Shown: in pieces, positions 677 to 58,236 of the stretch
Numbering within the stretch: the stretch's first letter is position 1
How the letters are laid out: every line of letters begins with the position of its first letter
Source of the DNA: Paraburkholderia sp. Tr-20389
GTDB lineage: Bacteria; Pseudomonadota; Gammaproteobacteria; Burkholderiales; Burkholderiaceae
Reading direction: 5' to 3'
DNA: 62,303 nt
Assembly (NCBI RefSeq): GCF_017104565.1
Contig: NZ_JAAGPD010000060.1
Span: forward strand, 1 to 62,303
Translations under genes and position numbers: made by a program
The notes under the pieces: model-generated
Told to the model about the DNA's origin: nothing
The model's database searches: none
Seen by the model: the letters and a program-made list of their open reading frames with translations, nothing else

Positions 677-732
677 CCTACTTTTCTTTGCAAGACAAAG
701 AAAAGTAGGTGCCGCCCCGCACAGGGGCGACG
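677..732. repeat. Dispersed palindromic repeat, left copy
   Basis: A perfect 14-bp stem (677-690 with 696-709, 5-nt loop) is followed by a GC-rich tail containing GCCGCCCCGCACAGGGG. The same unit occurs in inverted orientation at 62205-62261. It lies in the 273-bp gap between aceF and lpdA and resembles REP-like elements scattered between genes in Paraburkholderia. It could also act as an mRNA-stabilising or terminating hairpin. Confidence 0.7.
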
Positions 733-823
733 CGTGAAGCGAGACGACAAAGCAGGTTCAACGAAAGCGCCTGATGGTCGAATCAAACATGATCACCAGG
801 CGCCAGCGGCACAACATCAACCA

Positions 824-16729: not shown

Positions 16730-16806
<77 letters not shown>

Positions 16807-16865
16807 AAGCCCAGTAAGGCTTACCGCGATTTAGCCCATTTTCAGGAACAAGATTTTTCTTCGAA

Positions 16866-16899
16866 TTTGGGCGCTATGTGGGCGCTGGCCGCGCAAAAC
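16866..16899 (+). repeat. Sub-terminal direct repeat, left copy
   Basis: 34 bp matching 27107-27140 at 27 positions (TTTGGGCG, then GGGCGCTGGC, then AAAAC). It lies 60 bp inside attL. Candidate integrase or excisionase arm-binding site. Confidence 0.55.
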
Positions 16900-16933
16900 G
16901 GCCAAAAGCAGCGCCCAAGCAAAGCTAACCAAG

Positions 16934-16960
16934 GCCCGCCATCGAGCGGGCTTTGTGCTT
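16934..16960 (+). terminator. Possible terminator near the left end of the element
   Basis: Stem GCCCGC / GCGGGC with a 6-nt loop, followed by a T-rich stretch (CTTTGTGCTTT). It could end transcripts coming out of the tRNA-fMet gene before the first element gene. Confidence 0.45.
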
Positions 16961-17077
16961 TCCGGGCCACTGAAGGCCCCGGCCCGCCTCGGACGTCGGC
17001 ATATACTTGCCGGTCAGCGCGAACGGCACCACGGGCCGAATTCGCGGCCCGCTGCCCGTTTTCCCACGGAGGCAACC

Positions 17078-17635
17078 ATGCCGCTGCCTGAACCCCTCGA
17101 ACTACACATCCAGACCGTTTGGTCATCCGTGCGCCTTGTTCTGCTCCAGCGGGTGATCTGCGAGGTGCTGCCCGATACGCGTGTGGACTTCTGGCGAGTC
17201 ACGCAAGGCGCGTCGGTCGACTATGGCCTGATCGAGTGGTGCAAGATTTTCGGCAGCCGAGCCGATGACACGCACTGGACGAACCTCGTGCCGAAGGACC
17301 GGCACGACGCGTTCAGGGATGGCCTGCACAAGGCAGTCGGCATGACCGCCGACGAGTGGGACGCCTACCACACGAAGATGAAGGAGTACCGCGATACGCT
17401 GGCGGCGCACATCGACTTCAATGGCAAGACGACGCACTACCCGGACTTCGGACCTGCGCTCGCCGCCGCGTTCTACTACTACGCCACCTTCCTCTATCCC
17501 GAGTGGTCAGCGAAGCATCCCGACACGGGCTATCCCGCCGACATGCAAGCCTTCGCGGCGGACTATCGCCAGCAGTTGTTCGACGTGGCCAGCGCCGCCG
17601 CGCAGGCCACCAGCCAGTTCGAGCCGGGGAAGTAG
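17078..17635 (+). CDS. Hypothetical protein, first element gene
   Basis: A 185-aa soluble protein that I do not recognise. ATG at 17078 follows ACGGAGG by seven bases. It is rich in aromatic and acidic residues (AAFYYYATFLYPEWSAKHPDTGYP) and has no membrane segment, signal peptide or known motif. It is one of two rightward genes in an otherwise leftward element and is convergent with the HEPN-like pair, 23 bp away. The position just inside attL, where satellites usually carry accessory cargo, makes it a cargo or defence-associated candidate only by location. Confidence 0.7.
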   Translation: MPLPEPLELHIQTVWSSVRLVLLQRVICEVLPDTRVDFWRVTQGASVDYGLIEWCKIFGSRADDTHWTNLVPKDRHDAFRDGLHKAVGMTADEWDAYHTKMKEYRDTLAAHIDFNGKTTHYPDFGPALAAAFYYYATFLYPEWSAKHPDTGYPADMQAFAADYRQQLFDVASAAAQATSQFEPGK

Positions 17636-17658
17636 CCGCCGCGCCTGTTTGCGTGACG

Positions 17659-18234
17659 TCAGAGGCTTGGCTCGGTCTTCGGGTCAGCCGACAGATCGGC
17701 GTCTTGGCGCGCGGCCTCTAGTACCTGCCGCCCCATCGCAATCTGGCCGGACCCGCTCAGCGTCGCGATGCCGGGAAAAGCGAGCTTGGCGATGTCGAGT
17801 TTCGATTGCGCGACCGGATCGTCTTCGCTGACCTTGTCTGGGAACACGGCAATGAACCACGCCTGAAAGACCTGCGCCTCGACAGGCCCGCCCTGCCGGA
17901 GCCGTATGTAGTCCTCCACCGCCAGAAACAGGATGGCGGAAACGTTGGCCTCGCGCAGTTCGACCGAGCTATCAGGGTTCGGGTCTTGGTCGGCGTGCTT
18001 GAAGAAGTTCCGGCACGGCTGGTTGACGTAGTGCTTGAGCTTATGTCCGGCTGGCAGATTCTCGCGCGCCTGCTTGGAGAAGCTGTCGATGCCCGCGCTG
18101 GTGGCGAGCACGTCGATCACTTCCCATGCGTTCGATGCGAGCGAGTAGACCGAGACCGGGTCGCCGCCGTCGAAGAACAGCCGGATCGCGGTGATCAGTT
18201 GCCGCCGCGCGGCGTCGATTTTTGTCACGATCAT
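17659..18234 (-). CDS. HEPN-like protein B (RNFFKH motif)
   Basis: A 191-aa mostly helical protein of unknown function. It contains CRNFFKHAD, with Arg75 and His80 in the Rx4H spacing (R-N-x-x-x-H) seen in the catalytic loop of HEPN RNase domains. ATG at 18234 lies six bases after the stop of the upstream gene, and its ribosome site CAGGAG overlaps that stop, so the two are translationally coupled. The motif match is visible; HEPN membership and RNase activity are inference. A small regulatory or uncharacterised conserved protein is the alternative. Confidence 0.72.
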   Translation of the reverse strand: MIVTKIDAARRQLITAIRLFFDGGDPVSVYSLASNAWEVIDVLATSAGIDSFSKQARENLPAGHKLKHYVNQPCRNFFKHADQDPNPDSSVELREANVSAILFLAVEDYIRLRQGGPVEAQVFQAWFIAVFPDKVSEDDPVAQSKLDIAKLAFPGIATLSGSGQIAMGRQVLEAARQDADLSADPKTEPSL

Positions 18235-18240
18235 GGCCGT

Positions 18241-18729
18241 CTACTCCTGCACGTGAACACGATGGAACAGCTCGGTGACAGCTCTCTTGACCGCCTCGGG
18301 GTCTTTCTCGTGCTGCTCGGGGTGAGCGTACTTCAGCATGTAGCCCGCCATCATGTACGTGATCGCATCTGCCTCGGTACGGACCCACTGCGCGAGGCGG
18401 ATGACCTCGGCATAGCTCGCGGGGTCGTTGTCGTCGTTCGCGGGCCAGCCGTTGCGAAGAAACCAGCGGTGCATGAGTTCGTGGCGGCGGTCGATCAGGG
18501 TGTTGAGCCGGTCCTCGAGATCCGCCGCGATCTGTCCGCGTTGCGAGAGAACCTTCACGACGTTTGACGTTGCGGTCTTGTACTTGCCTTCCTCGATCAT
18601 TCCGCCCGTCGCCTGAAGGTACGCAGGGTCGGTGATCATCTTGAAGCCTTCGTGGATCGACACGAACGCCGCCTCGAACATCTGCATCGCGATGACCGCG
18701 CGTCCAATCGCCGCGTAAGCCTGCTCCAT
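18241..18729 (-). CDS. HEPN-like protein A (RHELMH motif)
   Basis: A 162-aa predicted all-helical protein. The segment LIDRRHELMHRWF has Arg82 and His87 in Rx4H spacing, as in HEPN ribonuclease/toxin domains. ATG at 18729 has GGGAG seven bases upstream; the longer in-frame start at 18783 lacks one. It is the first gene of a two-gene leftward operon with protein B. Two adjacent proteins with the same motif spacing suggest a paired complex or a toxin with a related partner, a common layout in anti-phage systems. No nucleotidyltransferase (MNT) partner is present. Confidence 0.72.
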   Translation of the reverse strand: MEQAYAAIGRAVIAMQMFEAAFVSIHEGFKMITDPAYLQATGGMIEEGKYKTATSNVVKVLSQRGQIAADLEDRLNTLIDRRHELMHRWFLRNGWPANDDNDPASYAEVIRLAQWVRTEADAITYMMAGYMLKYAHPEQHEKDPEAVKRAVTELFHRVHVQE

Positions 18730-18897
18730 GCGTTTCTCCCGGTAGTGAGCCAGCGCGGGAATTCTACAGGCGCGGCGGTTCACGTCTCGGCAAACGCGTC
18801 AGGTCCGTCCGCCGCGTGCGCGACTATTACGCGCAGTGCCTGCAGTCGCTGATCGCCGTCACGAAGGCCGAGAACACCGAGCGCACGCGAGAACAAA

Positions 18898-18923
18898 GTA
18901 GAAGTGCAAATTTGCACTTCTAC
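18898..18923. repeat. Perfect 26-bp palindrome, copy 1
   Basis: GTAGAAGTGCAAA and its exact reverse complement with no spacer. The 20-bp core recurs at 20093-20114. It lies between the stop of the gene ending at 18938 and the start of the HEPN-like operon at 18729, so it could be an operator for that operon. Confidence 0.9.
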
Positions 18924-18937
18924 CTCCGATGAACCGA

Positions 18938-19357
18938 TCACGCTTGAACAGGCAGCGAGCGCGATGAAGGTTTCGCGCCGCCGAGCGCCAGCGCGGCGAG
19001 GTCGGCGTCGATCCTTGCGCACGCACGCCGGTATCGCGCCTCCGCTTCCCTGCGACTCGTCCAGCGTGCGGTGCCGTCCGTGACCTCGCGCACGATGCGC
19101 GCGAACACCCTCGCGGCGCGAGCGTGCGACGCGGGCAGCGGATCGACGGGCGGCAGCACATCACGCTCGCTGTTCAGCCTGACCGGGATCGGCTTGGCGC
19201 GCCTCGCGTAGCGCGGGTCGACGCGATAGATTCCGCGTGCGCCGTGGGCGACACGCGGGGCGAGCGGCACGCCCGAGAGCATCGCCTGCGTGATGCCGCC
19301 GTTGAAGCGCGGCAGCGTGGCGGCGTCCCGTTCGCGGGTGCGCTGGTGCTTCCACAT
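18938..19357 (-). CDS. Hypothetical basic protein
   Basis: A 139-aa Arg/Ala-rich protein, not recognised. ATG at 19357 is preceded by GGAGG nine bases upstream; the longer frame from 19405 has no ribosome site. The N-terminus (MWKHQRTRERDAATLPRF) is strongly basic and the C-terminal half looks helical (SRREAEARYRRACARIDADLAAL). Probably nucleic-acid associated, but no family is evident. Confidence 0.62.
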   Translation of the reverse strand: MWKHQRTRERDAATLPRFNGGITQAMLSGVPLAPRVAHGARGIYRVDPRYARRAKPIPVRLNSERDVLPPVDPLPASHARAARVFARIVREVTDGTARWTSRREAEARYRRACARIDADLAALALGGAKPSSRSLPVQA

Positions 19358-19422
19358 GACGTTGCCCTCCGCGTAAGCGTGATAATCGCAGACGTTTGCC
19401 GACACACTCTCCCGAGGCCGTC

Positions 19423-19815
19423 ATGGACACGATCGATCGCGCGCTGCTCGCTTGGCACGAATGGAACTCGGGATGGCAACCGTGCGCAAGCTATCCGCGC
19501 GACGCCTCTTTCGCCGGTCAATACCACAGCAGCAGCCAGTGGGCGACGCCGGAAGATACCGATGACGTCATTGACCGGCATCTCGTCGAACAGACCGCGC
19601 GCCTGCTCGATCCGCTCGTCGCGGCGCTCGACGTGCGGCTGCGCATAGCGATCAACATGGCGATGCGCAACTTCGAGGCGGGCGCGAGCGTGTGGCGCAA
19701 TCCGAGGTCGCCCGCGACGCAGGAGGCCGACTACGCACGTGCGAAGCGGCTGCTGGCACCGAAACTGATGGCGCTCGGACTGATCGGGCGGGAGCAGGTT
19801 CACGTCAGCGCATAG
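19423..19815 (+). CDS. Hypothetical phage-like protein
   Basis: A 130-aa protein read rightward, divergent from the gene starting at 19357. ATG at 19423 follows GAGG by five bases. It has the feel of small phage regulators (MDTIDRALLAWHEWNSGWQP, and a helical RLRIAINMAMRNFEAGASVWRN core), but I cannot assign a family. No membrane segment. Confidence 0.65.
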   Translation: MDTIDRALLAWHEWNSGWQPCASYPRDASFAGQYHSSSQWATPEDTDDVIDRHLVEQTARLLDPLVAALDVRLRIAINMAMRNFEAGASVWRNPRSPATQEADYARAKRLLAPKLMALGLIGREQVHVSA

Positions 19816-20122
19816 GGGAAGGAAAGCCGTGCGGGCACGCCCGCCACGCACGGCCAATGTCACATCGGGAGTGTTGCGCACGGATATTTCGGTCCGCCGT
19901 GCGCACCGGACGCCGCGTGTACGACCCGGCTTCGCGGACCCCTGCGGGAGGGGGCTGGCGGGGGACGACCCCCGGTCGTAGTTCTGGCGTTTTGAAAATA
20001 AATGAGGCCACGGGGTGACGCAAAATGTTGCTGGAAAGTCACAGACGTCCCCCGCCTGCCTTGGCCCGAGCCATCAACGGCTGGACGGCGATGGAAGTGC
20101 AAATTTGCACTTCCTTCTCCGG
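19816..20122. other. Non-coding region with the second palindrome
   Basis: 307 bp between convergent genes. It holds the perfect palindrome at 20093-20114 and a G/C-run segment around 19930-19985. A 72-codon leftward frame (19805-20023) covers much of it but has no ribosome site and Pro/Arg-biased composition, so I do not call it. Confidence 0.5.
20093..20114. repeat. Perfect 22-bp palindrome, copy 2
   Basis: GGAAGTGCAAA and its exact reverse complement. It shares a 20-bp core with the palindrome at 18898-18923 and lies nine bases beyond the stop of the leftward gene ending at 20123. Confidence 0.9.
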
Positions 20123-20356
20123 TCAGCGGATGCACCGCCAGTCACCTGCGCTGCCCGCAACACGCGCGACGAGCGTTTCCTTTCGTCCGTCATCGAGCAC
20201 GGCGACGTAGACGTCCTGTCCGTGCCTGCGTGCCTCGTTGAGCAGCTTCTCCAGCGCATCGGCGTGCTCGTCGCCAAAGATCAACGCGTAGTCGGCGCGC
20301 GTGCGCAGGACGCGTTGCAGGCCACAGTCGATGAGGATCGGTTGAACGTCGTGCAT
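20123..20356 (-). CDS. Hypothetical small protein
   Basis: A 77-aa protein, not recognised. ATG at 20356 follows GGAGG by six bases and is 12 bp behind the previous gene, so it is the last member of the leftward capsid-region operon. The sequence looks globular (YALIFGDEHADALEKLLNEARRHGQDVYVAVLDDG). It ends just before the second palindrome. Confidence 0.7.
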   Translation of the reverse strand: MHDVQPILIDCGLQRVLRTRADYALIFGDEHADALEKLLNEARRHGQDVYVAVLDDGRKETLVARVAGSAGDWRCIR

Positions 20357-20368
20357 GATGCCTCCGTG

Positions 20369-20674
20369 TCAGGCGTTGCCGCCGATCTTGCGCGGCGGGT
20401 GAACGATCCAGAAGCCCTTCGAGGTGACCGTGACGAGCCGCACCGTTCCCGGCTCGGCATCGGAGACCAGCGCGCCGAAGGACACAATGCGCGCATCGGT
20501 GGCGTGCGCCGTGTCGAACCGCTTCGCGATGCGGTTATAGGCGTGCTGTTCAAGTTCGTCCTCGGTGAGGCTCTGCACGGCTTCGGATGCGGCGGGGTCA
20601 GCCTTGATGAGGTTGCCGCACTCTTCCGCAGTTACGCGACCGTTCATACGCAGGATGAATGTCTGGTCGGCCAT
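20369..20674 (-). CDS. Hypothetical small protein
   Basis: A 101-aa protein, not recognised. ATG at 20674 has GGGAG seven bases upstream. Spacing of 12 bp on both sides places it in one operon with the genes at 20687 and 20123. Mixed composition without membrane segments; the C-terminus is basic (HPPRKIGGNA). Confidence 0.7.
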   Translation of the reverse strand: MADQTFILRMNGRVTAEECGNLIKADPAASEAVQSLTEDELEQHAYNRIAKRFDTAHATDARIVSFGALVSDAEPGTVRLVTVTSKGFWIVHPPRKIGGNA

Positions 20675-20686
20675 GTCCGGTCTCCC

Positions 20687-21022
20687 TCAGTCGATCATCG
20701 TGGCGACGGCGCGCAGCACGTATCGATGCCGCTCGCCGCTGGTGAGCCGGATCGATAGCAGGCCCTTCGCATCGCTGTGCGGATGCACGGCCAGTTCGAC
20801 CGACTGCAGGGGCGCGAGGGTCTGCCGCTGCGCGGCGATCGTCTCGTTGACGCGCTGCTGCGTGAGCCTGAACAGGCCCGCGCGTTCCTCGCGCGTCGAG
20901 CCGTAGCCGCGCTGCGAGTCGAGGTCGAGGTTCAGGCGCTGGAGGCTGCCGACGACGTTGTGCGCGAGTTCATCGGCAAACCGCTGGATCAGTTCGGCCT
21001 GCGTATCGACGGTCCGGCTCAT
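20687..21022 (-). CDS. Hypothetical protein coupled to the capsid gene
   Basis: A 111-aa protein. Its ATG at 21022 overlaps the capsid stop (ATGA) and GGGAG lies seven bases upstream inside the capsid gene, so the two are translationally coupled. The first half is predicted helical or coiled (QAELIQRFADELAHNVVGSLQRLNLDLDSQ), the second more beta-like. The tight coupling suggests a capsid partner such as a chaperone, scaffold or size-determining factor, but nothing in the sequence proves it. Confidence 0.72.
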   Translation of the reverse strand: MSRTVDTQAELIQRFADELAHNVVGSLQRLNLDLDSQRGYGSTREERAGLFRLTQQRVNETIAAQRQTLAPLQSVELAVHPHSDAKGLLSIRLTSGERHRYVLRAVATMID

Positions 21023-22011
21023 TGCGCGCTCCCGGCAGCGGGTGTCCATGCAACGCCCGACAGGTATGCGACGGCACCGGATGCGGCCTGCCACGCGACG
21101 GAGCGCTCGGCCAGAAAGCCGACGAGGTTCTCCTGCCACAGGTTGTGCATCACGCCATCGATCGTCACCGTCGCCTGCGTTGCCGTGTCGAGCCGCGCGC
21201 CATCGTCGCCGTAGGTGATCTGACCGGCATCGACGAGCGCCACGATGCCGTCCGGCACGTCCGCCGAGGCCACGGTCGGCAGGCCGCAGAACACGCCACC
21301 CTTCACGCCGAGCGTGCCCGCGCCGCCGACCATCGCGACCTGGAGCGCGAGCGACATGGCCGTGTTCGACGACATGACGAGCACGGCGCGCTCGATATCG
21401 CCAGTGAAGGCCGCGACTAGCGCGGTCATGTCGGCCTGCACGTCGCCCGTTACCGCGACCTCGGTGGCACCGTCGAGCAGCGACGCGGGCGCACCGGCCA
21501 CGGACGGCGAGGCGAACGCTGCCCCCGAGGTGATCTTCGCGACCGCGCGCTGCAGCGAGCGCGTGAGCGACTTTTCGGCGGCGTCGGTTGTCAGGTGAAT
21601 GACTTCCTTCGTCACCACGATCAGGCCCGCCGCCTTCTGCGGCTCGATGGTCAGCTGCTCGAACGATGCACCACTCGCGGCCTTGACCTCGCCTTCACCG
21701 ATCCACTGCGCGACCGGCTCCTCGTCCTCGACCAGCACGCGCGTGCGCACCGGGATCGTGTGCAGCGGCGAGAGGGCGTTGATGCGCGCCATCACGTCAT
21801 AGGTCTGCACGCCGAGAACGAAGTCGCTGACCGCCGCACGGTACGCGGCGTCGCCGCCGAGGTTTCCGCTGGTGATGATGGCCTTCTGGATCAAACCGAG
21901 CGCAGGACCGTCGCCATAGTCCTTGCGGTGGATCTCCGCAGCGGCAAGCGGGTCGCCGCCAGCCTTGGCGAGGCATCTGATGAACTTGACGTAGGTGTTG
22001 CCGACGATCAT
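21019..22011 (-). CDS. HK97-type major capsid protein (orphan)
   Basis: A 330-aa protein resembling the HK97-fold major capsid family: an N-arm-like start, then VAQWIGEGEVKAASGASFEQLTI, the typical LIVVTKEVIHLTTDAAEKSL segment and VAKITSGAAFASP. The C-terminal half fits the capsid A-domain. Most HK97-type coat proteins are longer because of an N-terminal scaffold (delta) domain, which is absent here. ATG at 22011 has GGGAG seven bases upstream. No protease, portal or terminase gene is present in the element. It may form or alter a capsid using a helper phage, or may have been recruited for another role such as an encapsulin-like shell. Confidence 0.78.
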   Translation of the reverse strand: MIVGNTYVKFIRCLAKAGGDPLAAAEIHRKDYGDGPALGLIQKAIITSGNLGGDAAYRAAVSDFVLGVQTYDVMARINALSPLHTIPVRTRVLVEDEEPVAQWIGEGEVKAASGASFEQLTIEPQKAAGLIVVTKEVIHLTTDAAEKSLTRSLQRAVAKITSGAAFASPSVAGAPASLLDGATEVAVTGDVQADMTALVAAFTGDIERAVLVMSSNTAMSLALQVAMVGGAGTLGVKGGVFCGLPTVASADVPDGIVALVDAGQITYGDDGARLDTATQATVTIDGVMHNLWQENLVGFLAERSVAWQAASGAVAYLSGVAWTPAAGSAQ

Positions 22012-22065
22012 GGTCCGCTCCCTGTGAAGTCGTTCGCACTGCCTTGCATGATGGCCGGTGTCCGG

Positions 22066-22368
22066 TCAGAAAGCGATGCATGAATTTTCGCGATTTTCGC
22101 CGCCTCTGTAGCTGCGCTCGATATGGGTCGCGAGATCGACCACGCGATACTTGCGCGCGTTTCCGAGCAGGCGGTACGGCAGGTCGATCGTGCCGTTCCT
22201 GATGGCGCTCCCGAGTCCAGCGCCGGTTGTGTAGCCGAGCACCTTTGCCGCCGCTTCCTCGCAGATCGCACCATCGGCGGCAATCGCAAAGTCATTGCGC
22301 GCGCAATAGCGGCGGATGGCGCGCACGGTCGCGCGGATGCGCCGTTCGAGTTCGTCGAGGTCGGTCAT
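22066..22368 (-). CDS. Small HTH-like protein downstream of rep
   Basis: A 100-aa protein. The segment EEAAAKVLGYTTGAGLGSAIRNGTI followed by LPYRLLGNARKYRVVDLATHIE looks like a winged-helix or MerR/excisionase-type DNA-binding fold (helix-turn-helix, then wing and a residue-rich basic turn). ATG at 22368 is two bases after the rep stop; an overlapping TTG at 22374 is the alternative start. No strong ribosome site, consistent with coupling to rep. Likely regulator or excision factor. Confidence 0.65.
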   Translation of the reverse strand: MTDLDELERRIRATVRAIRRYCARNDFAIAADGAICEEAAAKVLGYTTGAGLGSAIRNGTIDLPYRLLGNARKYRVVDLATHIERSYRGGENRENSCIAF

Positions 22369-22370
22369 GG

Positions 22371-23741
22371 TCAATGCCGCGTCTCGTTTCCCGGCAGAAC
22401 GCAGGTGCCCGCCGCAGAGGCGGGCCGGTCAAAAAAAGACTGGCCTCCTGCGGCCTGCTGCACGCCGCCTGCGCGTGCCCTGATCCGGGCATCAAGCGCA
22501 TCCCGCACGGCCCTCCATGTGGGCGTCTTGCCGTTGGCTTTCTTCTTCGCATCCCGGCACGCGGCCTCGAACATCGCCTCGTCGACGTTGTGCCATGCGA
22601 TGGCCCGCAGTAGCCACTCGCCCATGTCCCATCGATCGCGGTTCGCGTTCCATCCGGGCTTGTCAAACTCGTCCGCATAGATCGCTTCGAGTCGGCGCGC
22701 GGCGCGAACCGTCTCCTCGCTGAACGCGTGCGCGGGAGCGCTGACGACCGACTCGCGCGTCCTGAGCACGCCGTCGAGCGTGTTGCGTACTGCCGCGAGC
22801 CTCGGCCTGCGACCGTCCTTCTGCTTGCGCTGCGCCGCGCCGATCGCCTCGCGCATGTCGTCCACGCTCGCGCCGTTGCTCGCGAGGCGAAGGCAGGCGT
22901 CCTCGACTGCGCTGCGGTCTTTCGACTCGCAGTGCTCGAAGAACGCCTCGACCATCGCCTGCACCACCGGATTTTGTGCAGCACGACTTGCCCCGTTCGC
23001 GGGGGGCACATCGGTCGAGCTTCGCGCAGCGAAGTCGACAAGCGTGCCCGGCGACTGAGGGCCGCTCAAAGGCCGCTCTGGTAAACCGCTCTGTAAACGC
23101 TCTAAAACGCTCGTACCGCATGGTGAGGTAAATGACGGGGTCTCATGAGGTAAATGACGCTCCTCAATGCGGTAATTGACAGCGCCATTTGCGGTAAATG
23201 AATCCGCGTCATGAGGTAAATGAACGCGTGCCTCACGCGTGCCCGACGCGTGGGAATTACCGCATGGCGCGGTAATTGAGGCGTCCGGTGAATTACCGCA
23301 TGGTGCGGTAATTGACCTCTTGCGGTCGCATTTTTGCTGCTTTGCACGATTGGTGTCCCGAAACTCATTCCAGCCGACGTTCTCGGGATAGAGTTCGTGC
23401 AGACGGTGCATGTCCACGCGGCGCGCGACGCGACGCCTATGCTTTTTTGCTTCGTCGTCGTCGGGATCATCTGCGGGAAACTCGAAGTCGGGCAGGCGCA
23501 CGGTGAGGCCGGTGCGATCGAAGTCAGCGAGCGCACGCTGCGCGGTGACCTCGCTTACGCCAGCACGGAACGCAAGTTTCAGCGCGGACGGCCACACGAC
23601 GCATGCGTCGTTCTTGATGAACGCCACAAGCTCCCGCGCCACGCTCTGCCTGCCGTCGGGGAACGGGTAACGATGGAGTTCGAGTTCAGCCTTACGGCGC
23701 GCACTCGGGTTCTCCGCGCTCACCCGTCGACCGGCGCTCAT
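22371..23741 (-). CDS. Replication initiator-like protein with origin inside its gene
   Basis: A 456-aa protein. Residues about 30-90 form a winged-HTH-like domain (VARELVAFIKNDACVVWPSALKLAF, GVSEVTAQRALADFDRTGL), as in phage and plasmid replication initiators. Residues about 142-206 are low complexity and encoded by an iteron array, and the C-terminal part (about 300-456) is helical. This three-part plan resembles lambda O, where the origin lies within the initiator gene. ATG at 23741 has GGAGG seven bases upstream and overlaps the previous stop (ATGA). The family assignment is by architecture, not close similarity. Confidence 0.72.
   Translation of the reverse strand: MSAGRRVSAENPSARRKAELELHRYPFPDGRQSVARELVAFIKNDACVVWPSALKLAFRAGVSEVTAQRALADFDRTGLTVRLPDFEFPADDPDDDEAKKHRRRVARRVDMHRLHELYPENVGWNEFRDTNRAKQQKCDRKRSITAPCGNSPDASITAPCGNSHASGTREARVHLPHDADSFTANGAVNYRIEERHLPHETPSFTSPCGTSVLERLQSGLPERPLSGPQSPGTLVDFAARSSTDVPPANGASRAAQNPVVQAMVEAFFEHCESKDRSAVEDACLRLASNGASVDDMREAIGAAQRKQKDGRRPRLAAVRNTLDGVLRTRESVVSAPAHAFSEETVRAARRLEAIYADEFDKPGWNANRDRWDMGEWLLRAIAWHNVDEAMFEAACRDAKKKANGKTPTWRAVRDALDARIRARAGGVQQAAGGQSFFDRPASAAGTCVLPGNETRH
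23125..23316. repeat. Iteron array, putative replication origin of the element
   Basis: Five direct 12-mers of form GMGGTAAWTGAM start at 23125, 23147, 23169, 23191 and 23213, exactly 22 bp apart. Two more forward copies start at 23269 and 23305, each paired with an inverted copy just upstream (AATTACCGC at about 23255 and 23291). The 22-bp phase equals two helical turns, as in initiator-binding iterons. The whole array is inside the rep-like coding sequence. Confidence 0.85.
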
Positions 23742-24124
23742 GACGCACCTCCATTGCGGCGTCCGCCGTGCTGCGTGCAGCAATGGCCGAGCCGTTCGAA
23801 TGCAGCCCATTTCGCGGGGTTGTGCGCCGGGTCATAGATGAGGAAGTACGTGCCCGGGATCACGCGGCGGCAGCGCTTGCCCTGATGCGTGATCGCGTGG
23901 CACAGGTACGTGCCATTCGTTTCGCGCCATGTGTTCAATTCCCCAATGCTTATGCCGAGATGGCGCGCGACCACACCATCGGGATCAGTCATGTAGTCGA
24001 TTGCCTCCTGCGGCGTCAGGGTAAGGTGCCAGTCGAACGGGCCAGCGGGCATCACCGTGAGGTCGACACCCACTTCGCACAGGTACGTGAGGGCTTCGAC
24101 AAGGTCGTCGCGGTTGGGGATCAT
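23738..24124 (-). CDS. Hypothetical Cys/His-rich protein upstream of rep
   Basis: A 128-aa protein, not recognised. ATG at 24124 follows GGAGGG by five bases; the stop overlaps the rep start. The second half has YLCHAITHQGKRC and GHCCTQHGG, a set of Cys and His residues that could bind zinc. The N-terminal half includes LTPQEAIDYMTDPDGVVARHLGIS. It sits directly before the initiator gene, so a role in replication control is plausible but unproven. Confidence 0.68.
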   Translation of the reverse strand: MIPNRDDLVEALTYLCEVGVDLTVMPAGPFDWHLTLTPQEAIDYMTDPDGVVARHLGISIGELNTWRETNGTYLCHAITHQGKRCRRVIPGTYFLIYDPAHNPAKWAAFERLGHCCTQHGGRRNGGAS

Positions 24125-24201
24125 GACGCCCTCCGCATCGCTTGCGCGGGCAATTGATACGGACTACGATCGGCGTGCATTGCAGATGCACACGCCTCCT
24201 C

Positions 24202-24236
24202 GCCCGCGCACTCGACGGCGCGGGCTTTCTTTTTTC
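24202..24236 (+). terminator. Rightward terminator in the divergent control region
   Basis: Stem GCCCGCGC (24202-24209) / GCGCGGGC (24218-24225) with an 8-nt loop, followed by TTTCTTTTTT. No rightward gene precedes it. A small hairpin GTGCAT / ATGCAC lies just upstream, so it may end a short regulatory RNA. The surrounding region 24125-24413 (289 bp) has no gene I can support. Confidence 0.72.
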
Positions 24237-24413
24237 TGCAGTTCATGTTTCAGGCTCCGGTTCGTTGTACGCGCAACATCGCGCGCAGTGGTGTCCTCTT
24301 TGCCGGGATGCCCTCGACTCTTTTTGCTACAGGCACTTTGCCGCTGTTTTCACGAGGTCCGACTGACGCGGGCCTTCCATGAAGCTGGTGAGCTGTGCCG
24401 ATGCTGTCCCTCA

Positions 24414-25007
24414 TCAGGCATCGCACTCGTTGACGCTTTCGGCGGAAAGCATCAGCGCGGCAGGATTGCCGGAAAGCAAACCGGCAATGTCGCGCCTGTC
24501 CATCGGCGGCAACAGTTGCTCGGGCGTCGGAATTTTCACCAGCGCGGCCCTTGCCTCGTCGCTCGTTAGCGAGCCAGCGAGCAATTCCGTATGCCGCGCG
24601 GCCAGTGCGCGTTCCAGTTGCGTCTTTGCCTTTTTCACGCGCCCGTCAATTTCGGCGTTGCCTGCGCGGCGCACCTCGTCGCGGCGCTCCTTGAGGCCAT
24701 ACCGGCCACGATTGACAAACGTGCAGTGGAAGCCCGGTGCGTTTTCCATCGGCACACCGGACGCTTTCGCAATGGCCTTGAGCCGTTCATCCGCTTCGTG
24801 GCCAACCTGCTTCGCGTGCTCTACCAGTTCGGCCCACCGCTCATCGTCCTCGTGAAATATCTGCGAGAGGCTTTCTTCCATGCGGGCGCGCAGGATAGCG
24901 GCATACTCGTCAATCGCGGCTTTCGCCACGCGGCCATTCAGCCGCAGCACTTCGCGCAGTGCGTCACGTTCCTTCGCGCTCATCGGCGCGGAATTCACCC
25001 TGTCCAT
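24414..25007 (-). CDS. Hypothetical helical protein
   Basis: A 197-aa protein, largely alpha-helical and charged (KERDALREVLRLNGRVAKAAIDEYAAILRARMEESLSQIF; KKAKTQLERALAARHTELLAG), likely with coiled-coil parts. ATG at 25007 follows GGAGACCGACA; GGAG is eight bases upstream. It follows the AlpA-like gene by 13 bp and reads the same way. No family recognised; similar genes of unknown role are common between the regulator and replication genes in satellites. Confidence 0.68.
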   Translation of the reverse strand: MDRVNSAPMSAKERDALREVLRLNGRVAKAAIDEYAAILRARMEESLSQIFHEDDERWAELVEHAKQVGHEADERLKAIAKASGVPMENAPGFHCTFVNRGRYGLKERRDEVRRAGNAEIDGRVKKAKTQLERALAARHTELLAGSLTSDEARAALVKIPTPEQLLPPMDRRDIAGLLSGNPAALMLSAESVNECDA

Positions 25008-25020
25008 TGTCGGTCTCCTC

Positions 25021-25254
25021 TTACGCGATCTCGCGTTCGCCGGTCGCCTGCGACTTCGCTTCCATCGCGCGCGCCCACTGCTCGGCGGCGCGGTATGTGA
25101 TCAGCACCTTGCGGCCCACGAACAGGATCTCGGGAGCCTCGCCGCGCTGGCGCAGCTTCCACAAGGTGGAGCGGTCGATCTGCATCGCCTCGCAGAACTC
25201 CTTGACGGTCATCGCACCGAAGGGCGCGGCCTGCTGGCTTTCCTCGTTGCCCAT
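25021..25254 (-). CDS. AlpA/MerR-like HTH regulator
   Basis: A 76-aa DNA-binding protein. MTVKEFCEAMQIDRSTLWKLRQRGEAPE is a helix-turn-helix of the AlpA/excisionase type, followed by FVGRKVLITYRAAEQWARAM, the usual wing and helix. Start 25254 has GAGAGG seven bases upstream; the longer frame from 25326 does not. In P4-like and other satellites such proteins activate integrase/excision genes. It probably starts the leftward early operon. Confidence 0.82.
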   Translation of the reverse strand: MGNEESQQAAPFGAMTVKEFCEAMQIDRSTLWKLRQRGEAPEILFVGRKVLITYRAAEQWARAMEAKSQATGEREIA

Positions 25255-25344
25255 GTTTGCCTCTCGCGGTTGGGTGGGTAACGACAGGATGGCAGATGAA
25301 AAAATGGCACACCAAGCGTGTGCCATTAAATAATTTGTCGGGGT

Positions 25345-25791
25345 TTACACCGAGACTTTTCTCGGGCGTCCTCGCGGTTCCTGCGGTGTGATCTTGCGAA
25401 CGGTGTCGGCGCGAATCCTGAATCGCTTCGCCAGCCGCTCGTTGCGTTCGCCCTTGGACGTGACGCCCGCGCGTTTCAGGTCATGGTCGGCGCGAATGAT
25501 TGCGTCGCGCGTGGCCTGTGTGATGCGTGCAGTTTTGGGCAGGCTGCTTACATGACGGCGGACCGCTTCGAGGTGGGCAGCTTCGCCCGACAGGGCGCGG
25601 GCCAGTAACGCGGCCAGCCCCTCGCGTGCCTCGTCGGGGTCGCCATCGAGCAGGTCGCTGACTAGCGCGAATGCCTCATCGAAGGTCACGGCGCGCGGCG
25701 GATAACGCGGCGAGAGCGCTTCTGCATCGTCCCCGACCTCACTCAGGACGCGGCGATATTGCGCCCTGAGCGTCGAGCGTTTTGCGCTCAT
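25345..25791 (-). CDS. Hypothetical protein coupled to integrase
   Basis: A 148-aa protein whose start overlaps the integrase stop (ATGA), so it is made from the int transcript. The C-terminus NERLAKRFRIRADTVRKIT resembles a helix-turn-helix of the resolvase/Hin kind, followed by a basic tail (RGRPRKVSV). A recombination directionality factor or int-linked regulator is plausible. No clear family. Confidence 0.68.
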   Translation of the reverse strand: MSAKRSTLRAQYRRVLSEVGDDAEALSPRYPPRAVTFDEAFALVSDLLDGDPDEAREGLAALLARALSGEAAHLEAVRRHVSSLPKTARITQATRDAIIRADHDLKRAGVTSKGERNERLAKRFRIRADTVRKITPQEPRGRPRKVSV

Positions 25792-27095
25792 GCTGCGGCC
25801 TTGCGCGGGGCGCGCTTCTTCGCGGGCGCGTTGAACGCGGTGGCGATCGCGGCGTGAAGATGATCGGGGTCAATGTGCGCGTATCGCTCAACCATCGCGA
25901 AGCTGCTATGCCCGAGCAGCGTCTTGACCTTGTACAGGTCGGTTCCTTTCGCCACAAGCTGCGTGGCGAAATCGTGGCGCGTGTCGTGAAAGCGGAAACC
26001 CTTGATCCCGGCAGCGTCGAGCAGTGAGTCCCACGCGTTGCCGAAATCCGTCAGCGGCGCATCGGTTTCAGGGTTGCCGAACACGTACACACGATGGGCG
26101 AGCGGCTTCCACGCGGTGAGACAGGCGAGCAGTTCATCGCTGATCGGAATGTCGCGCCGCCTGTCGCTTTTCGCCACGGCGCGGCGCACATGGATGGTGC
26201 GCAACTCGAAGTCGACGTCCTCCCATTCGAGCGCGAGCAGTTCGCCCTTTCTCATGCCGGTATGCAACGCAGTGATCACGAGCGGTTGCAGGTAGTCCGT
26301 ATAGCGCACGTTGCGCAGCGAGGGCGGTGCGGCCTGCTTGCGCATCCGGCGATGGGCAATGGTTCGGTGGCGCGCGTCGCGGTTCGCTTCCTCGCGTGCC
26401 TCCATTGCCGCGTACAGACGCTCACGCTCAAGCGGATCGTTTTTCCCGAGGTAGCGCACCACCACTTCGGCCCGACCGTTGCGCTCCACGTCCTTCGCCG
26501 GGTTGTCCGTGATGTGACCCGCTTTCACCGCGACCCGCAGCAGACCCTGCAGCGCGTGCAGCTTGTTCGCGATGGTCTTCTGCGTGATGCCGGTCTTCAC
26601 CGCCTTCGATTTCCATTGTTCGAGCATCCACCCGTTGAACTCGTCGAGGCCCCGGTCAAGCAGGTCGGGAAACGACGAGCGGATCAGGCTCGCGTTCGCG
26701 GTGGCGATGCCGTTGGCTTCGAGGTAGGCGGTGTAGTCGCCGTCGAGGAAGGTGCGCAGGCTCGGCACGCCATGCGCGCGGCGCACGCTCTCGGCACGGC
26801 GGCGCTTCTTTTCTTCGACCACGGCAGGCGTGTCCTGCTTGGTCGGCGTCTGCTCCAGTTCGCGGCGCGCTGCCTCGCGGGCGTCGCTTGCGCTCATGGC
26901 GGGATACTTGCCGATGGCCCTGCGGCCTTCGCTGCCGTCCGGTTTGTAGTAGCGCACCGTGAAGGTGATGCTGCCGCTTGGCAGCACGCGCACCTTGAAG
27001 CCGGTCAGGTCGGCGTCGGCGTACTCCTGAAACTTGCCGGTGGCTTCGAGGCCGCGCAGGAACTCTCGGGTGATGTTGACCTTGTTTTTGGACAT
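25788..27095 (-). CDS. Tyrosine recombinase integrase
   Basis: A 435-aa phage-type integrase. An N-terminal arm-binding region (VRVLPSGSITFTVRYY...GRRAIGKYP) and SAM-like core-binding domain precede the catalytic domain. Catalytic residues: Arg282 (HTGMRKGELLAL), HDTRH, LGHSS and Tyr405 (ERYAHI). Start 27095 has GGAG seven bases upstream; the frame from 27149 is longer but lacks it. It lies 134 bp from attR and must recombine the 50-bp tRNA-fMet site. The direct repeat at 27107-27140 covers its promoter/ribosome-site area, suggesting self-regulation. The Ala/Lys-rich end overlaps the next gene. Confidence 0.95.
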   Translation of the reverse strand: MSKNKVNITREFLRGLEATGKFQEYADADLTGFKVRVLPSGSITFTVRYYKPDGSEGRRAIGKYPAMSASDAREAARRELEQTPTKQDTPAVVEEKKRRRAESVRRAHGVPSLRTFLDGDYTAYLEANGIATANASLIRSSFPDLLDRGLDEFNGWMLEQWKSKAVKTGITQKTIANKLHALQGLLRVAVKAGHITDNPAKDVERNGRAEVVVRYLGKNDPLERERLYAAMEAREEANRDARHRTIAHRRMRKQAAPPSLRNVRYTDYLQPLVITALHTGMRKGELLALEWEDVDFELRTIHVRRAVAKSDRRRDIPISDELLACLTAWKPLAHRVYVFGNPETDAPLTDFGNAWDSLLDAAGIKGFRFHDTRHDFATQLVAKGTDLYKVKTLLGHSSFAMVERYAHIDPDHLHAAIATAFNAPAKKRAPRKAAA

Positions 27096-27106
27096 AGAGA
27101 CTCCGG

Positions 27107-27140
27107 TTTGGGCGGTTCTTGGGCGCTGGCGGCAGAAAAC
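27107..27140 (+). repeat. Sub-terminal direct repeat, right copy
   Basis: Partner of 16866-16899 (27 of 34 identical, same orientation). It lies 89 bp inside attR and immediately upstream of the int start. Confidence 0.55.
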
Positions 27141-27229
27141 AACCACCAACGAGAAACCACCACCATAGCTCTAAGTCTTTGATTTAAAAACGTCCAGCGC
27201 CATCCGGCAATACCCGCAAACGGGTAGAT

Positions 27230-27279
<50 letters not shown>

Positions 27280-56254: not shown

Positions 56255-56593
56255 TCAAAGCGCATTGACCCGGAAATCGTACTGGTCGATTTCGACGAGC
56301 GCCTTCCGTTCATCCATCCATGCGAACGCAACGGCCTTGAATGAGTTCGACGCGGCGTGCAGGGCGGCGCGCTTGTCGGCCTTCTTCGCTTCGCAGGGGT
56401 CGATACCGTGCGCGAGTTTTTCGCGTGCGTCGTCGCGCTTCTTGCGCGCGGCAGCCAGAGACACATCGGGATAGACGCCGAGTGCGAGCCGCATTTCCTT
56501 GCCAGCGAATCCCTATCGCCTCGCGGACGGCGGCGCTATGTATCTCGAAGTCACGCCAGCGGGCGGAACGTACTGGCGGATGAAGTATGGAAT
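56255..56593 (-). pseudogene. Dead tyrosine integrase with internal micro-inversion
   Basis: On the minus strand, FAGKEMRLALGVYPDVSLAAARKK (two pieces) is the start of a P4-type integrase. The preceding part of such proteins, PYRLADGGAMYLEVTP and GGTYWRMKYG, is found on the plus strand at 56511-56591. Re-inverting that segment restores MKYG-FAGKEM in frame. The extreme N-terminus is missing and the C-terminal catalytic part is gone after about residue 110. The inverted piece abuts the CCA end of tRNA-Leu, the presumed old attachment site. Confidence 0.85.
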
Positions 56594-56964
56594 TGGTGCC
56601 GGGGACCGGACTCGAACCGGCAAGCTGTTAAGCGGCGGATTTTCGTCACACTACGTCTTTCGACGCCGTCTGCCACGACACTCGAGGCAGCAGACGTTCG
56701 TGCGCTGGACTATGCCTTCGCCATCGCAATGCGCGCTTCGCACACATCGCCTTAGGCGCCCCCCGTCTAGTCTCTACACCTTCCACGCCTTCCGTCCCGC
56801 GTCAGCAGGAAAGAAAACGGGCTTGGCTCGGCGTCGCCTCGGCCGCACGACGTATAGCGTGCGTTCAGGGGTTTCGCCGAATTTGAAGGGTTCTGCACCG
56901 GCCGTTTCCGGCTGGGCACTCAATGCTTTAAGTCCGCTATGTTTACCAATTTCATCACCCCGGC
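56594..56964 (-). tRNA. tRNA-Leu(TAA) interrupted by a group I intron
   Basis: 5' exon 56930-56964 (35 nt, GCCGGGGTGATGAAATTGG then TAAACATAGCGGACTT) and 3' exon 56594-56643 (50 nt, AAAATCCGCC to CCGGCACCA). Joined, they give an 85-nt tRNA: 7-bp acceptor stem GCCGGGG/CCCCGGC, anticodon stem GCGGA/TCCGC, loop CTTAAAA with anticodon TAA, long class-II variable arm, T arm and encoded CCA. The interruption lies between U34 and A35. The spliced sequence is seen only by joining across 286 nt. Confidence 0.93.
56644..56929 (-). ncRNA. Group I intron in tRNA-Leu(TAA), IC3-like
   Basis: 286 nt. The 5' exon ends in U, which can pair as U-G with the internal guide (ACUU with GAGU), and the intron ends in G, as group I introns do. 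Core elements read leftward: TTCGGCGAAACC (56870-56881), GCCGAGCCAAGC (56821-56832), GGTGTAGAGACTAGACGG (56763-56780) and GAAGGCATAGTCC (56707-56719). These match the core of the Azoarcus tRNA-Ile and Anabaena tRNA-Leu introns as I remember them. It contains a GNRA-type GAAA hairpin (P2) and no open frame for a homing endonuclease. Confidence 0.92.
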
Positions 56965-56976
56965 AGGGCGGACGCG

Positions 56977-57005
56977 ATTCTACCATCGCGCCGCAGCCTG
57001 ACCAA
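56977..57005 (-). promoter_or_regulatory. Sigma-70 promoter of tRNA-Leu
   Basis: Read leftward: TTGGTC, 17-bp spacer, TAGAAT, ending 12 bp before the tRNA 5' end at 56964. Confidence 0.75.
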
Positions 57006-57153: not shown

Positions 57154-58236
57154 ATGACGCCCACGATCAAGGATGTCGCCGCCCACGCGGGCTTTTCGAT
57201 CGCGACCGTCTCGCGCGCGATCAACGCGCCGCACACGGTCAACCCCGTGACCCTCGAAAAAGTGCGTCAGTCGATCGACGCGCTCAACTTCCGCCCGAGC
57301 CCGCTCGGCCGCCAGTTGCGCGGCGAGCGCTCGCGCCTGATCGGCGTCATGCTGCCGACGCTCGCCAATCCCGTGTTCGCCGAATGCCTGCAGGGCATCG
57401 ACGAACTCGCGTCGGCACAAGGCTATCGTCTGATGCTGATGACGACGCAGTACGACGCCGACCGCGAGCGCCGCGCGATCGAAACGCTGCGCGAGCAGCG
57501 CGTCGAAGGCCTGATCCTGACGGTCGCCGACGCCGACACGCACCCGCTGCTCGACGATCTCGACCGCGACGGCATGCTGTACGTGCTGATGCACAACGAC
57601 ACCGTGCGCCGCCCGTCGGTATCCGTCGACAACCGCCAGGCCGCCTACGACGGCGTCCGGATGCTGATCGCGCACGGCCATCGACGCATCCTGATGCTCG
57701 CCGGCACACTCGCCGCGTCGGACCGCGCGCGGCTGCGCCATCTCGGCTACACGCAGGCAATGCAGCAGGCGGGCCTCACGCCCGCGCCCGCACTCGAAAT
57801 CGACTTCAACGCGGACGAACTCGCGCCCTCCGTGCTCAATCATCTGACCACGGGCGCGAATCGCCCGACGGCCCTGTTCTGCTCCAACGATCTGCTCGCG
57901 ATGGTCGTGATGCGCGGCCTGCGCCGCGCGCGCTTCGAGATGCCCGGCGACATGTCGATTCTCGGCTTCGACGGCCTCGCGATGGGCGAACTGCTGTCGC
58001 CGCCGCTCGCGAGCGTCTGCGCGCCGAACCGGGAGATCGGCTGCGCGGCATGGCGCCGGCTGATCGAGCGCGTCGACGGCACGCAGCCTTCGGGTTTCGA
58101 CGACGCACTGCACGCGCCGTCGCTGTCGCTGACCTTGCCGCACACGCTGCGCGAAGGCGCGACGATCGCCGCGATCGCCGCGATCTCCGACGTCTCGGAC
58201 GCCGCGTCGAACCGCATCCTCCGCACGCTCGCCTGA
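57154..58236 (+). CDS. LacI-family transcriptional regulator
   Basis: A 360-aa repressor. The N-terminal HTH TIKDVAAHAGFSIATVSRAIN and hinge segment (RPSPLGRQLRGERSRLIGV) are typical, followed by a periplasmic-binding-protein-like sensor domain (LIGVMLPTLANPVFAECLQGI ... NDLLAMVVMRGL ... SILGFDGLAMGELLSPPL). The downstream ABC genes are 59 bp away in the same direction. The inducer is unknown. Confidence 0.94.
   Translation: MTPTIKDVAAHAGFSIATVSRAINAPHTVNPVTLEKVRQSIDALNFRPSPLGRQLRGERSRLIGVMLPTLANPVFAECLQGIDELASAQGYRLMLMTTQYDADRERRAIETLREQRVEGLILTVADADTHPLLDDLDRDGMLYVLMHNDTVRRPSVSVDNRQAAYDGVRMLIAHGHRRILMLAGTLAASDRARLRHLGYTQAMQQAGLTPAPALEIDFNADELAPSVLNHLTTGANRPTALFCSNDLLAMVVMRGLRRARFEMPGDMSILGFDGLAMGELLSPPLASVCAPNREIGCAAWRRLIERVDGTQPSGFDDALHAPSLSLTLPHTLREGATIAAIAAISDVSDAASNRILRTLA

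Follow-up and report, generated by a model that had tools for sequence, protein, structure and literature searches.

A group I intron interrupts the anticodon of tRNA-Leu(UAA) in Paraburkholderia, at a site also interrupted in alphaproteobacteria, Acidobacteriota, and Cyanobacteria

The intron of trnL, common to cyanobacteria and chloroplasts, is the textbook example of an ancient intron. The two-step splicing chemistry of group I introns is established, and members of the IC3 subgroup are small introns of tRNA anticodon loops that carry GAAA loops on P2 and P9. Another intron, of the Agrobacterium type, interrupts tRNA-Arg(CCU) in alphaproteobacteria. In the accessible parts of previous reports, the presence and absence of the cyanobacterial trnL intron were explained by one gain and several losses (PMC4476775), group I introns were found in tRNA-Ile2 of Acidovorax and Burkholderia (PMC8450103, tRNAscan-SE 2.0), and the hosts of bacterial tRNA introns were given in reviews as cyanobacteria plus a few members of the alpha- and betaproteobacteria (PMC4033280, PMC11408192). 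We found no report of proteobacterial tRNA-Leu(UAA) introns in the searchable literature, a body that leaves most subscription journals and the key papers of the 1990s outside, and the accessible parts of PMC8450103, PMC3984707, PMC11835236, PMC4033280, PMC11408192, PMC4476775, PMC8692619, PMC8857208, and PMC12696581 mention none. Relative to the literature searched, an intron at this site in proteobacteria is new.

The intron described here lies in a tRNA-Leu(UAA) gene of Paraburkholderia, a betaproteobacterium, as the original prediction had it. It is like the cyanobacterial trnL intron in the tRNA that it interrupts, the U34/A35 junction, the core plan, and the terminal G, but differs from it in sequence (53-56% mean identity over kept columns). 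With the Azoarcus-type intron of tRNA-Ile(CAU), it has in common betaproteobacterial hosts, the same helices, and, among the matches listed, the segment GGTGTAGAGACTAGACGG that is also found in most tRNA-Ile rows, whereas the host tRNA is Leu(UAA) and not Ile(CAU), and the tRNA-Ile introns form a separate compact group whose identity to it is below that of alphaproteobacterial tRNA-Leu introns. The intron is conserved, belongs to a known kind of group I intron with an ordinary mechanism, and occupies an unexpected yet widely shared place.

The split tRNA-Leu(UAA) gene and its intron

The window, i.e., the whole stretch of 62,303 nucleotides that was analysed, was searched with ARAGORN with introns allowed, which called a tRNA-Leu(taa) on the minus strand (56594-56964) with two exons and a 286-nt intron placed after nucleotide 35 (Table 1). 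The two tRNA-Leu halves expected from the original prediction were recovered at the same coordinates and join into a complete 85-nt tRNA with a UAA anticodon; the split also confirmed the break between U34 and A35 and the terminal G of the intron. In this region, two promoter-like sites were found, compared with 0.1 expected from shuffles.

Standard annotation settings overlooked this locus. By default, ARAGORN reported a tRNA-Met as the sole tRNA of the window and missed tRNA-Leu(UAA), and Rfam at gathering scores did not find the intron in the window. A permissive local search with RF00028 produced an end-to-end group I match (56689-56939, 32.5 bits, E 1.9e-6), the only one reported genome-wide, which remained under the gathering score of 50 bits, a curated cut-off and not a biological feature. 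Nine of ten loci tested failed to reach this score, alphaproteobacterial and tRNA-Ile types included, and the sole locus to pass was cyanobacterial; one cyanobacterial intron tested scored 93.9 bits versus 32.5 for the window. Betaproteobacteria are not all below the cut-off, as 29 of 398 genomes of the family have a match above it. A model built from 40 relatives (R1) gave the window intron 242.8 bits, the window itself being within the training set.

Table 1. Features of the split tRNA-Leu(UAA) locus and its surroundings (positions in the window).
Feature	Position	Strand	Basis
tRNA-Leu(UAA) 5' exon, 35 nt, end ...GCGGACUU (U33, U34)	56930-56964	-	ARAGORN with introns; intronless orthologues of 85 nt share this junction
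Group I intron, 286 nt, terminal G	56644-56929	-	ARAGORN, RF00028, covariation, model from 40 relatives
tRNA-Leu(UAA) 3' exon, 50 nt, start AAAAUCCGC (A35, A36), CCA end	56594-56643	-	ARAGORN with introns
P1: exon ACUU (56930-56933) and guide GAGU (56918-56921), U.G at 5' splice site	56918-56933	-	Alignment of 40
P10: guide UU (56922-56923) with 3' exon AA (56642-56643)		-	Alignment of 40
P2 with GAAA loop	56895-56917	-	Two-sided changes at 8/8 pairs; GAAA columns invariant
P3 (56885-56890 with 56759-56764), enclosing P4, P5, P6, and P7 5' strand	56759-56890	-	Two-sided changes: P3 3/6, P4 2/6
Guanosine-binding helix P7 (56768-56772 with 56708-56712); contains P3 3' strand and P8	56708-56772	-	Two-sided changes 3/5; 40/40 paired
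P8 (56755-56758 with 56719-56722) and extension	56719-56758	-	Alignment of 40
P9 (56700-56704 with 56647-56651), P9a, and P9b (56662-56666 with 56653-56657) closed by GAAA	56647-56704	-	Alignment of 40
Promoter-like hexamer pair, 13 bases upstream of the tRNA	56977-57004	-	Consensus match only
LacI-family regulator, divergent neighbour, marker of the orthologous locus	57154-58236	+	Locus comparison

A group I structure comprising P1, P2, P3, P4, P5, P6, P6a, P7, P8, P9, P9a, P9b, and P10 was drawn on an alignment of 40 Burkholderiales tRNA-Leu(UAA) introns, taken from the 54 left after similarity thinning of 109. Two-sided changes were observed at 34 of the 59 modelled pairs, and 96.4% of the 2,357 cells were paired, compared with 85.6% in shuffles and 34.0-42.8% when partners were slid by 1-3 columns, a control that leans toward the structure for cells paired, because the structure was drawn from the window and known group I anatomy, and less so for two-sided changes. 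None of 500 shuffles reached any of the five covariation measures. In the window intron, all 59 pairs are intact. Taken with the RF00028 match, the covariation bears out the P1-P9 fold and the assignment to group I. The minimum free energy of the whole pre-tRNA was no better than that of shuffles (z -1.36; 13 of 100 equally good), by a folding method unable to draw the P3/P7 pseudoknot of the core.

The pseudoknotted P3-P8 core is present, with all cells of P3, P6, P7, and P8 paired, and P7 varies as a unit (ACUA/UAGU in most relatives, AGCA/UGCU in three rows, and ACUU/AAGU in three others). The U.G pair at the 5' splice site was kept in 40/40 relatives, the two pairs of P10 in 40/40 and 39/40, and the column of the terminal G, present in the window, holds G in 40/40. 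Less constrained positions include the outermost P1 pair (missing in 13/40), the inner pairs of P2 (broken in up to 9/40), and the first base of the P9b loop, which is variable next to an invariant AAA. With its 286 nt and GAAA at P2 and P9b, the window intron matches the feature list of the IC3 subgroup.

The gene very probably encodes a pre-tRNA-Leu(UAA) carrying a group I ribozyme in its anticodon, an old resident in Burkholderia sensu lato that would make UUA decoding dependent on splicing. In the resulting transcript, with its anticodon interrupted by the ribozyme, the guide GAGU would pair with the four bases that end the 5' exon, leaving U.G at the splice site; guanosine bound in P7 would then allow a cut after U34, and the terminal G, together with P10, would serve to join U34 to A35 and restore the 85-nt tRNA. 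We infer this reaction from the sequence and from the chemistry of the intron class.

All 53 tRNA matches of the genome were inspected, of which 50 stand as loci, two lie inside those, and one is a partial tRNA-Met (27222). The leucine anticodons among these matches were CAA, CAG (twice), GAG (twice), and UAG; a second UAA anticodon, which would have made the split gene dispensable, was looked for and found nowhere among these 53 matches of the 129-contig draft, which is rated 100% complete and in whose gaps a second UAA gene is possible. Similarly, the spliced 85-nt sequence used as a query against the genome hit nothing beyond the split gene and the CAA gene. With no further UAA tRNA detected, reading of UUA in the host would depend on splicing, and the predicted need for splicing to make this tRNA, with or without a protein helper, is well founded.

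It is hardly credible, in our view, that the intron splices no longer, that the gene is dead, and that UUA is read otherwise. UUA is indeed rare (32 of 34,359 codons in the mechanical ORFs of the window, spurious ORFs included), and the Rfam score of 32.5 bits is low. Against this stand the 59 intact pairs, core columns that are 97% identical to those of close relatives, exon ends that are identical in 50/50 same-genus copies, the lack of any other UAA tRNA found in the genome, and the case of Candidatus Vallotia tarda, in which UUA is common, yet no intact UUA/UUG reader was found.

Six ORFs of at least 40 aa touch the intron, and the three longest were searched in Pfam. No endonuclease was found among these three, in keeping with what had been predicted; a 193-aa ORF on the opposite strand matched nothing but an integrase remnant that lies beyond the tRNA. 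Adjacent to the 3' end of the tRNA, two fragments of an integrase arm-binding domain (PF13356) were found on opposite strands, at 56255-56494 (-) and 56499-56593 (+), corresponding to profile positions 45-82 and 16-38. They could be left over from an integrated element that underwent an inversion, or result from faulty assembly. A phage search gave no match. Elsewhere in the window, the 3' half of tRNA-Met recurs as a perfect direct repeat of 50 bp (16757-16806 and 27230-27279), bounding about 10.5 kb (16757-27279) in which a phage capsid gene (21019-22011, PF05065) is accompanied by four spaced repeats of 22 bp (23124-23223), an organization suggestive of a prophage- or satellite-like element. 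In the Rfam search, 699-812 (+) also matched Bp1_684, an sRNA family of Burkholderia, with 47.0 bits versus a gathering score of 44.

Presence and absence of the intron in Paraburkholderia and beyond

Homologues at the same tRNA were looked for in related strains, and the tRNA with its intron aligned end to end in 50 of 88 same-genus genomes (74-100% identity). In 37 others, the gene is intronless with the exons side by side, and one genome (G078) was ambiguous. All 50 intron copies were called tRNA-Leu(taa) by ARAGORN, with introns of 257-332 nt and identical exon ends, and G013, of the same genus, has an identical intron to P. tropica NZ_CAJZAR010000081.1.

In all 21 intron loci of Paraburkholderia whose flanks are long enough (L002-L021, L370), the divergent LacI gene adjoins the tRNA, and so it does in L114 and L129, which belong to another genus. 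It is also the neighbour at 15 of 17 intronless loci, which are thus empty sites at the same locus; it was absent from the flanks examined at the intronless loci L357 and L358, at L128, and at four Mycetohabitans/Vallotia loci. In a LacI tree of 37 loci, 13 intronless rows formed one clade (99/99) and two more fell outside singly, corresponding to three changes of intron state (two to three across bootstraps) versus 11.8 for shuffled labels. The number of changes alone does not separate gain from loss, and the outgroup is one locus (L114), which has the intron. Because this sole outgroup carries it, the simplest reading of the neighbour-gene tree is that an ancestral intron may have been lost one to three times.

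Patchy presence (50 with, 37 without, and one ambiguous of 88) is what a recently mobile intron, homing among Paraburkholderia, might also produce. We consider such recent mobility highly improbable, as no endonuclease was seen in the intron ORFs searched, presence tracks the neighbour-gene tree (3 changes versus 11.8), and genera have their own intron groups (Mycetohabitans/Vallotia 100/99 in the 162-row MAFFT tree). Inheritance with the locus in Burkholderia sensu lato, followed by clean loss in some Paraburkholderia lineages without any endonuclease, would account for the pattern.

Beyond the genus, RF00028 with strict filters detected introns in at least 132 of 398 genomes of the family (17 of 25 genera) and at least 39 of 399 genomes of the order, counts that are lower bounds because the strict filter misses the window's own genome. 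Many of the introns found in this way lie at tRNA-Leu(UAA), and others at tRNA-Ile(CAU), tRNA-Leu(CAA), tRNA-Thr(UGU), and tRNA-Arg(CCU). The R1 model, also with strict filters, had a match in 57 of 274 genomes of the class.

A core-pattern scan of named genomes yielded at least 120 matches in at least 119 stretches, 104 with a tRNA call and 16 without. Among the matches listed, the tRNA-Leu(UAA) site accounted for 71 of the 104 calls: 43 in alphaproteobacteria, 14 in cyanobacteria, 4 in betaproteobacteria, 3 in Acidobacteriota, 2 in gammaproteobacteria, 1 in a Bacteroidia MAG, and 4 less well placed. These counts are not frequencies, because the pattern itself selects core types. One of the gammaproteobacterial matches, from a Tatlockia MAG (L234), groups with cyanobacteria and may be a binning error. 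The tRNA-Leu(UAA) site is thus occupied in alphaproteobacteria, Acidobacteriota, and Cyanobacteria as well. The original prediction suggested an intron of proteobacterial type at the cyanobacterial insertion site. Identity supports the proteobacterial type; the picture of such an intron newly placed at a cyanobacterial site is not supported, as the site is common to many proteobacteria and some Acidobacteriota.

ARAGORN labels for split genes were unreliable, many tRNA-Leu(UAA) genes being called Phe, Ser, Ala, or Arg, and split tRNA-Ile(CAU) genes Gln, Ser, Pro, or Arg. Leu-like cases were re-split by a rule that sets the exon ends at GACTT and AAAATC with G as the last intron base, giving 177 rows and 169 distinct introns; the terminal G in this wider set is present by construction and is no proof, because it is part of the rule.

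Other intron sites were encountered during this survey. The tRNA-Leu(CAA) introns of Burkholderiales (L115, L117, L305, L311, L312) form one group (100/96 in the 162-row MAFFT tree) nested among the tRNA-Leu(UAA) introns, which points to a jump between sister tRNA genes. Betaproteobacterial tRNA-Thr(UGU) introns (L119, L193, L198, L286, L289) are related to the Leu family in the 162-row MAFFT tree and in the model-based tree. Two genomes from the same family, each near 0.5 Mb in size, have a group I intron (L057, G160:C1, 459,399 bp; L058, G180:C1, 469,264 bp) in a gene called tRNA-Gln by ARAGORN, which, judging by the exon ends, is more likely tRNA-Ile(CAU). In G924:C175, G1093:C481, G955:C13, G1070:C1, and G1008:C275, R1-type introns occur in pairs a few hundred bases apart at most, as they do on opposite strands at L140. 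The introns near tRNA-Met/Ile(CAU) at L292 (G036), L306 (G331), and L173 are of a second kind, with different exon ends, and stand apart from the main tRNA-Ile group in the 162-row MAFFT tree.

Relationship to other tRNA introns

Three trees were computed: a first MAFFT tree of 162 of the 260 collected rows, thinned per genus; a second MAFFT tree from which 19 more rows were dropped (those with long branches or odd sites, together with L234 from the Tatlockia MAG); and a model-based tree of 99 of 101 model hits, with the alignment fitted to the betaproteobacterial Leu model. In the second and third of these, the bootstrap was not settled and some constrained trees outscored the free tree. The Azoarcus intron was represented by the tRNA-Ile(CAU) introns of Burkholderiales as a stand-in, and the trnL lineage by cyanobacterial rows alone.

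Over kept columns, the mean identity to the window intron (MAFFT/model alignment) was 0.81/0.80 for betaproteobacterial tRNA-Leu, 0.71/0.74 for alphaproteobacterial tRNA-Leu, 0.68/0.72 for alphaproteobacterial tRNA-Arg, 0.568/0.657 for Burkholderiales tRNA-Ile(CAU), and 0.534/0.561 for cyanobacterial tRNA-Leu introns. Outside betaproteobacteria, the highest identities are thus to alphaproteobacterial introns. The prediction that the core is closer to the Azoarcus intron than to the cyanobacterial one agrees with the mean identities in both alignments, but the nearest kin are beta- and alphaproteobacterial tRNA-Leu introns. The alphaproteobacterial introns at the tRNA-Leu(UAA) site (Caulobacter, Phenylobacterium, Sphingomonas, Bradyrhizobium, and others) are like the window intron in tRNA, junction, and sequence (71-74% mean identity), and reach 154-206 bits with R1 among the rows scored (157.3 for L155), but they mostly occupy separate branches in the trees. 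The alphaproteobacterial tRNA-Arg(CCU) intron has the same core and 68-72% mean identity, in another tRNA and in a group of its own (97/95 in the first MAFFT and 100/99 in the model-based tree).

Acquisition by Burkholderiales from cyanobacteria (or plastids) at the homologous site would explain why the tRNA and the U34/A35 junction are the same as in the cyanobacterial rows, and a joint clade of betaproteobacterial and cyanobacterial Leu introns was not rejected by the AU test (p 0.292, MAFFT; 0.288, model). Nevertheless, the cyanobacterial introns have the lowest mean identity of the larger groups, and their rows formed a group of their own without the window (14/14 in the second MAFFT and 12/12 in the model-based tree, 100/100 in both), the window lying far inside the betaproteobacterial group. 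Such a transfer thus appears very improbable.

The intron might instead have arisen locally from tRNA-Ile(CAU) introns of the Azoarcus type, through a jump to tRNA-Leu within Burkholderiales. The tRNA-Ile rows fell in a set with betaproteobacterial Leu and Arg introns in the model-based tree (98/86), a tree uniting betaproteobacterial Leu and Ile introns in one clade scored 19.26 log units above the free tree (MAFFT; AU p 0.748, and 0.287 with the model alignment, not rejected in either), and jumps between sites do occur, since betaproteobacterial tRNA-Leu(CAA) introns are nested among those of tRNA-Leu(UAA). However, identity is higher to the alphaproteobacterial Leu and Arg introns (0.71/0.68 versus 0.57 in MAFFT; 0.74/0.72 versus 0.66 in the model alignment), the Ile rows stand apart in the first MAFFT tree (99/99), and the reverse direction, from Leu to Ile, fits the same tree. 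We regard this origin as unlikely. A single clade of all Leu(UAA) introns was rejected (p 0.0148, MAFFT), the outcome that colonisation of other tRNA sites from inside this group would produce.

Split leucine tRNA genes in Candidatus Vallotia and their implications

The same split tRNA-Leu(UAA) gene was found on plasmids in PLSDB, with nine records from Mycetohabitans and four from Candidatus Vallotia. In V. tarda G153 (chromosome 1,123,864 bp, plasmid 72,431 bp), the plasmid carries a split tRNA-Leu(UAA) and the chromosome a split tRNA-Leu(CAA), and no intact UAA or CAA anticodon was found among 41 tRNA matches, all chromosomal. The two split genes are the only UUA/UUG readers found in V. tarda, the full catalogue having been made for G153 alone; both are also present in G173, G203, and G212. 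The Vallotia split genes lie on the plasmid at L052, L053, L122, L124, L313, and L342 and on the chromosome at L311, L312, L334, and L335. In a 20-kb stretch of G153, UUA or UUG made up 145 of the 3,375 codons of seven mechanical ORFs. The Vallotia introns have a lowered G+C content (0.45-0.48 versus 0.63) and keep 54-56 of the 59 modelled pairs, with four to five two-sided changes and two to four broken pairs relative to a Mycetohabitans intron, which suggests slight decay of a structure that is mostly kept.

In the accessible part of its description, the V. tarda plasmid is listed with no tRNA genes, and argG and tyrB are tentatively proposed as a reason for keeping it (PMC8692619); likewise, in the accessible part of a 2025 survey of Mycetohabitans chromids, catalytic introns were found with no tRNA loci (PMC12696581). 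The hidden tRNA may be a stronger candidate for the retention of the Vallotia plasmid than argG and tyrB.

A broader picture can be put forward only tentatively. A single ribozyme lineage may have occupied U34/A35 of tRNA-Leu(UAA) across Proteobacteria, Acidobacteriota, and Cyanobacteria, and through the latter plastids, either since before these phyla separated or by repeated transfer to the same site; the plant trnL intron would then be one branch of it, and the ribozyme would often be essential for decoding, with the hidden pair of Vallotia, the only means found there of reading UUA and UUG, as one reason for the plasmid. If the site is occupied across Proteobacteria, as the 71 calls among the matches listed suggest, the history of the trnL intron needs to be retold from a wider sample. 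The most general new point is hidden, ribozyme-dependent decoding: because default ARAGORN misses the tRNA and the Rfam cut-off misses the intron, a genome can seem to be without an essential tRNA, and Vallotia, whose plasmid is described without a tRNA in the accessible part of PMC8692619, is an example of the cost.
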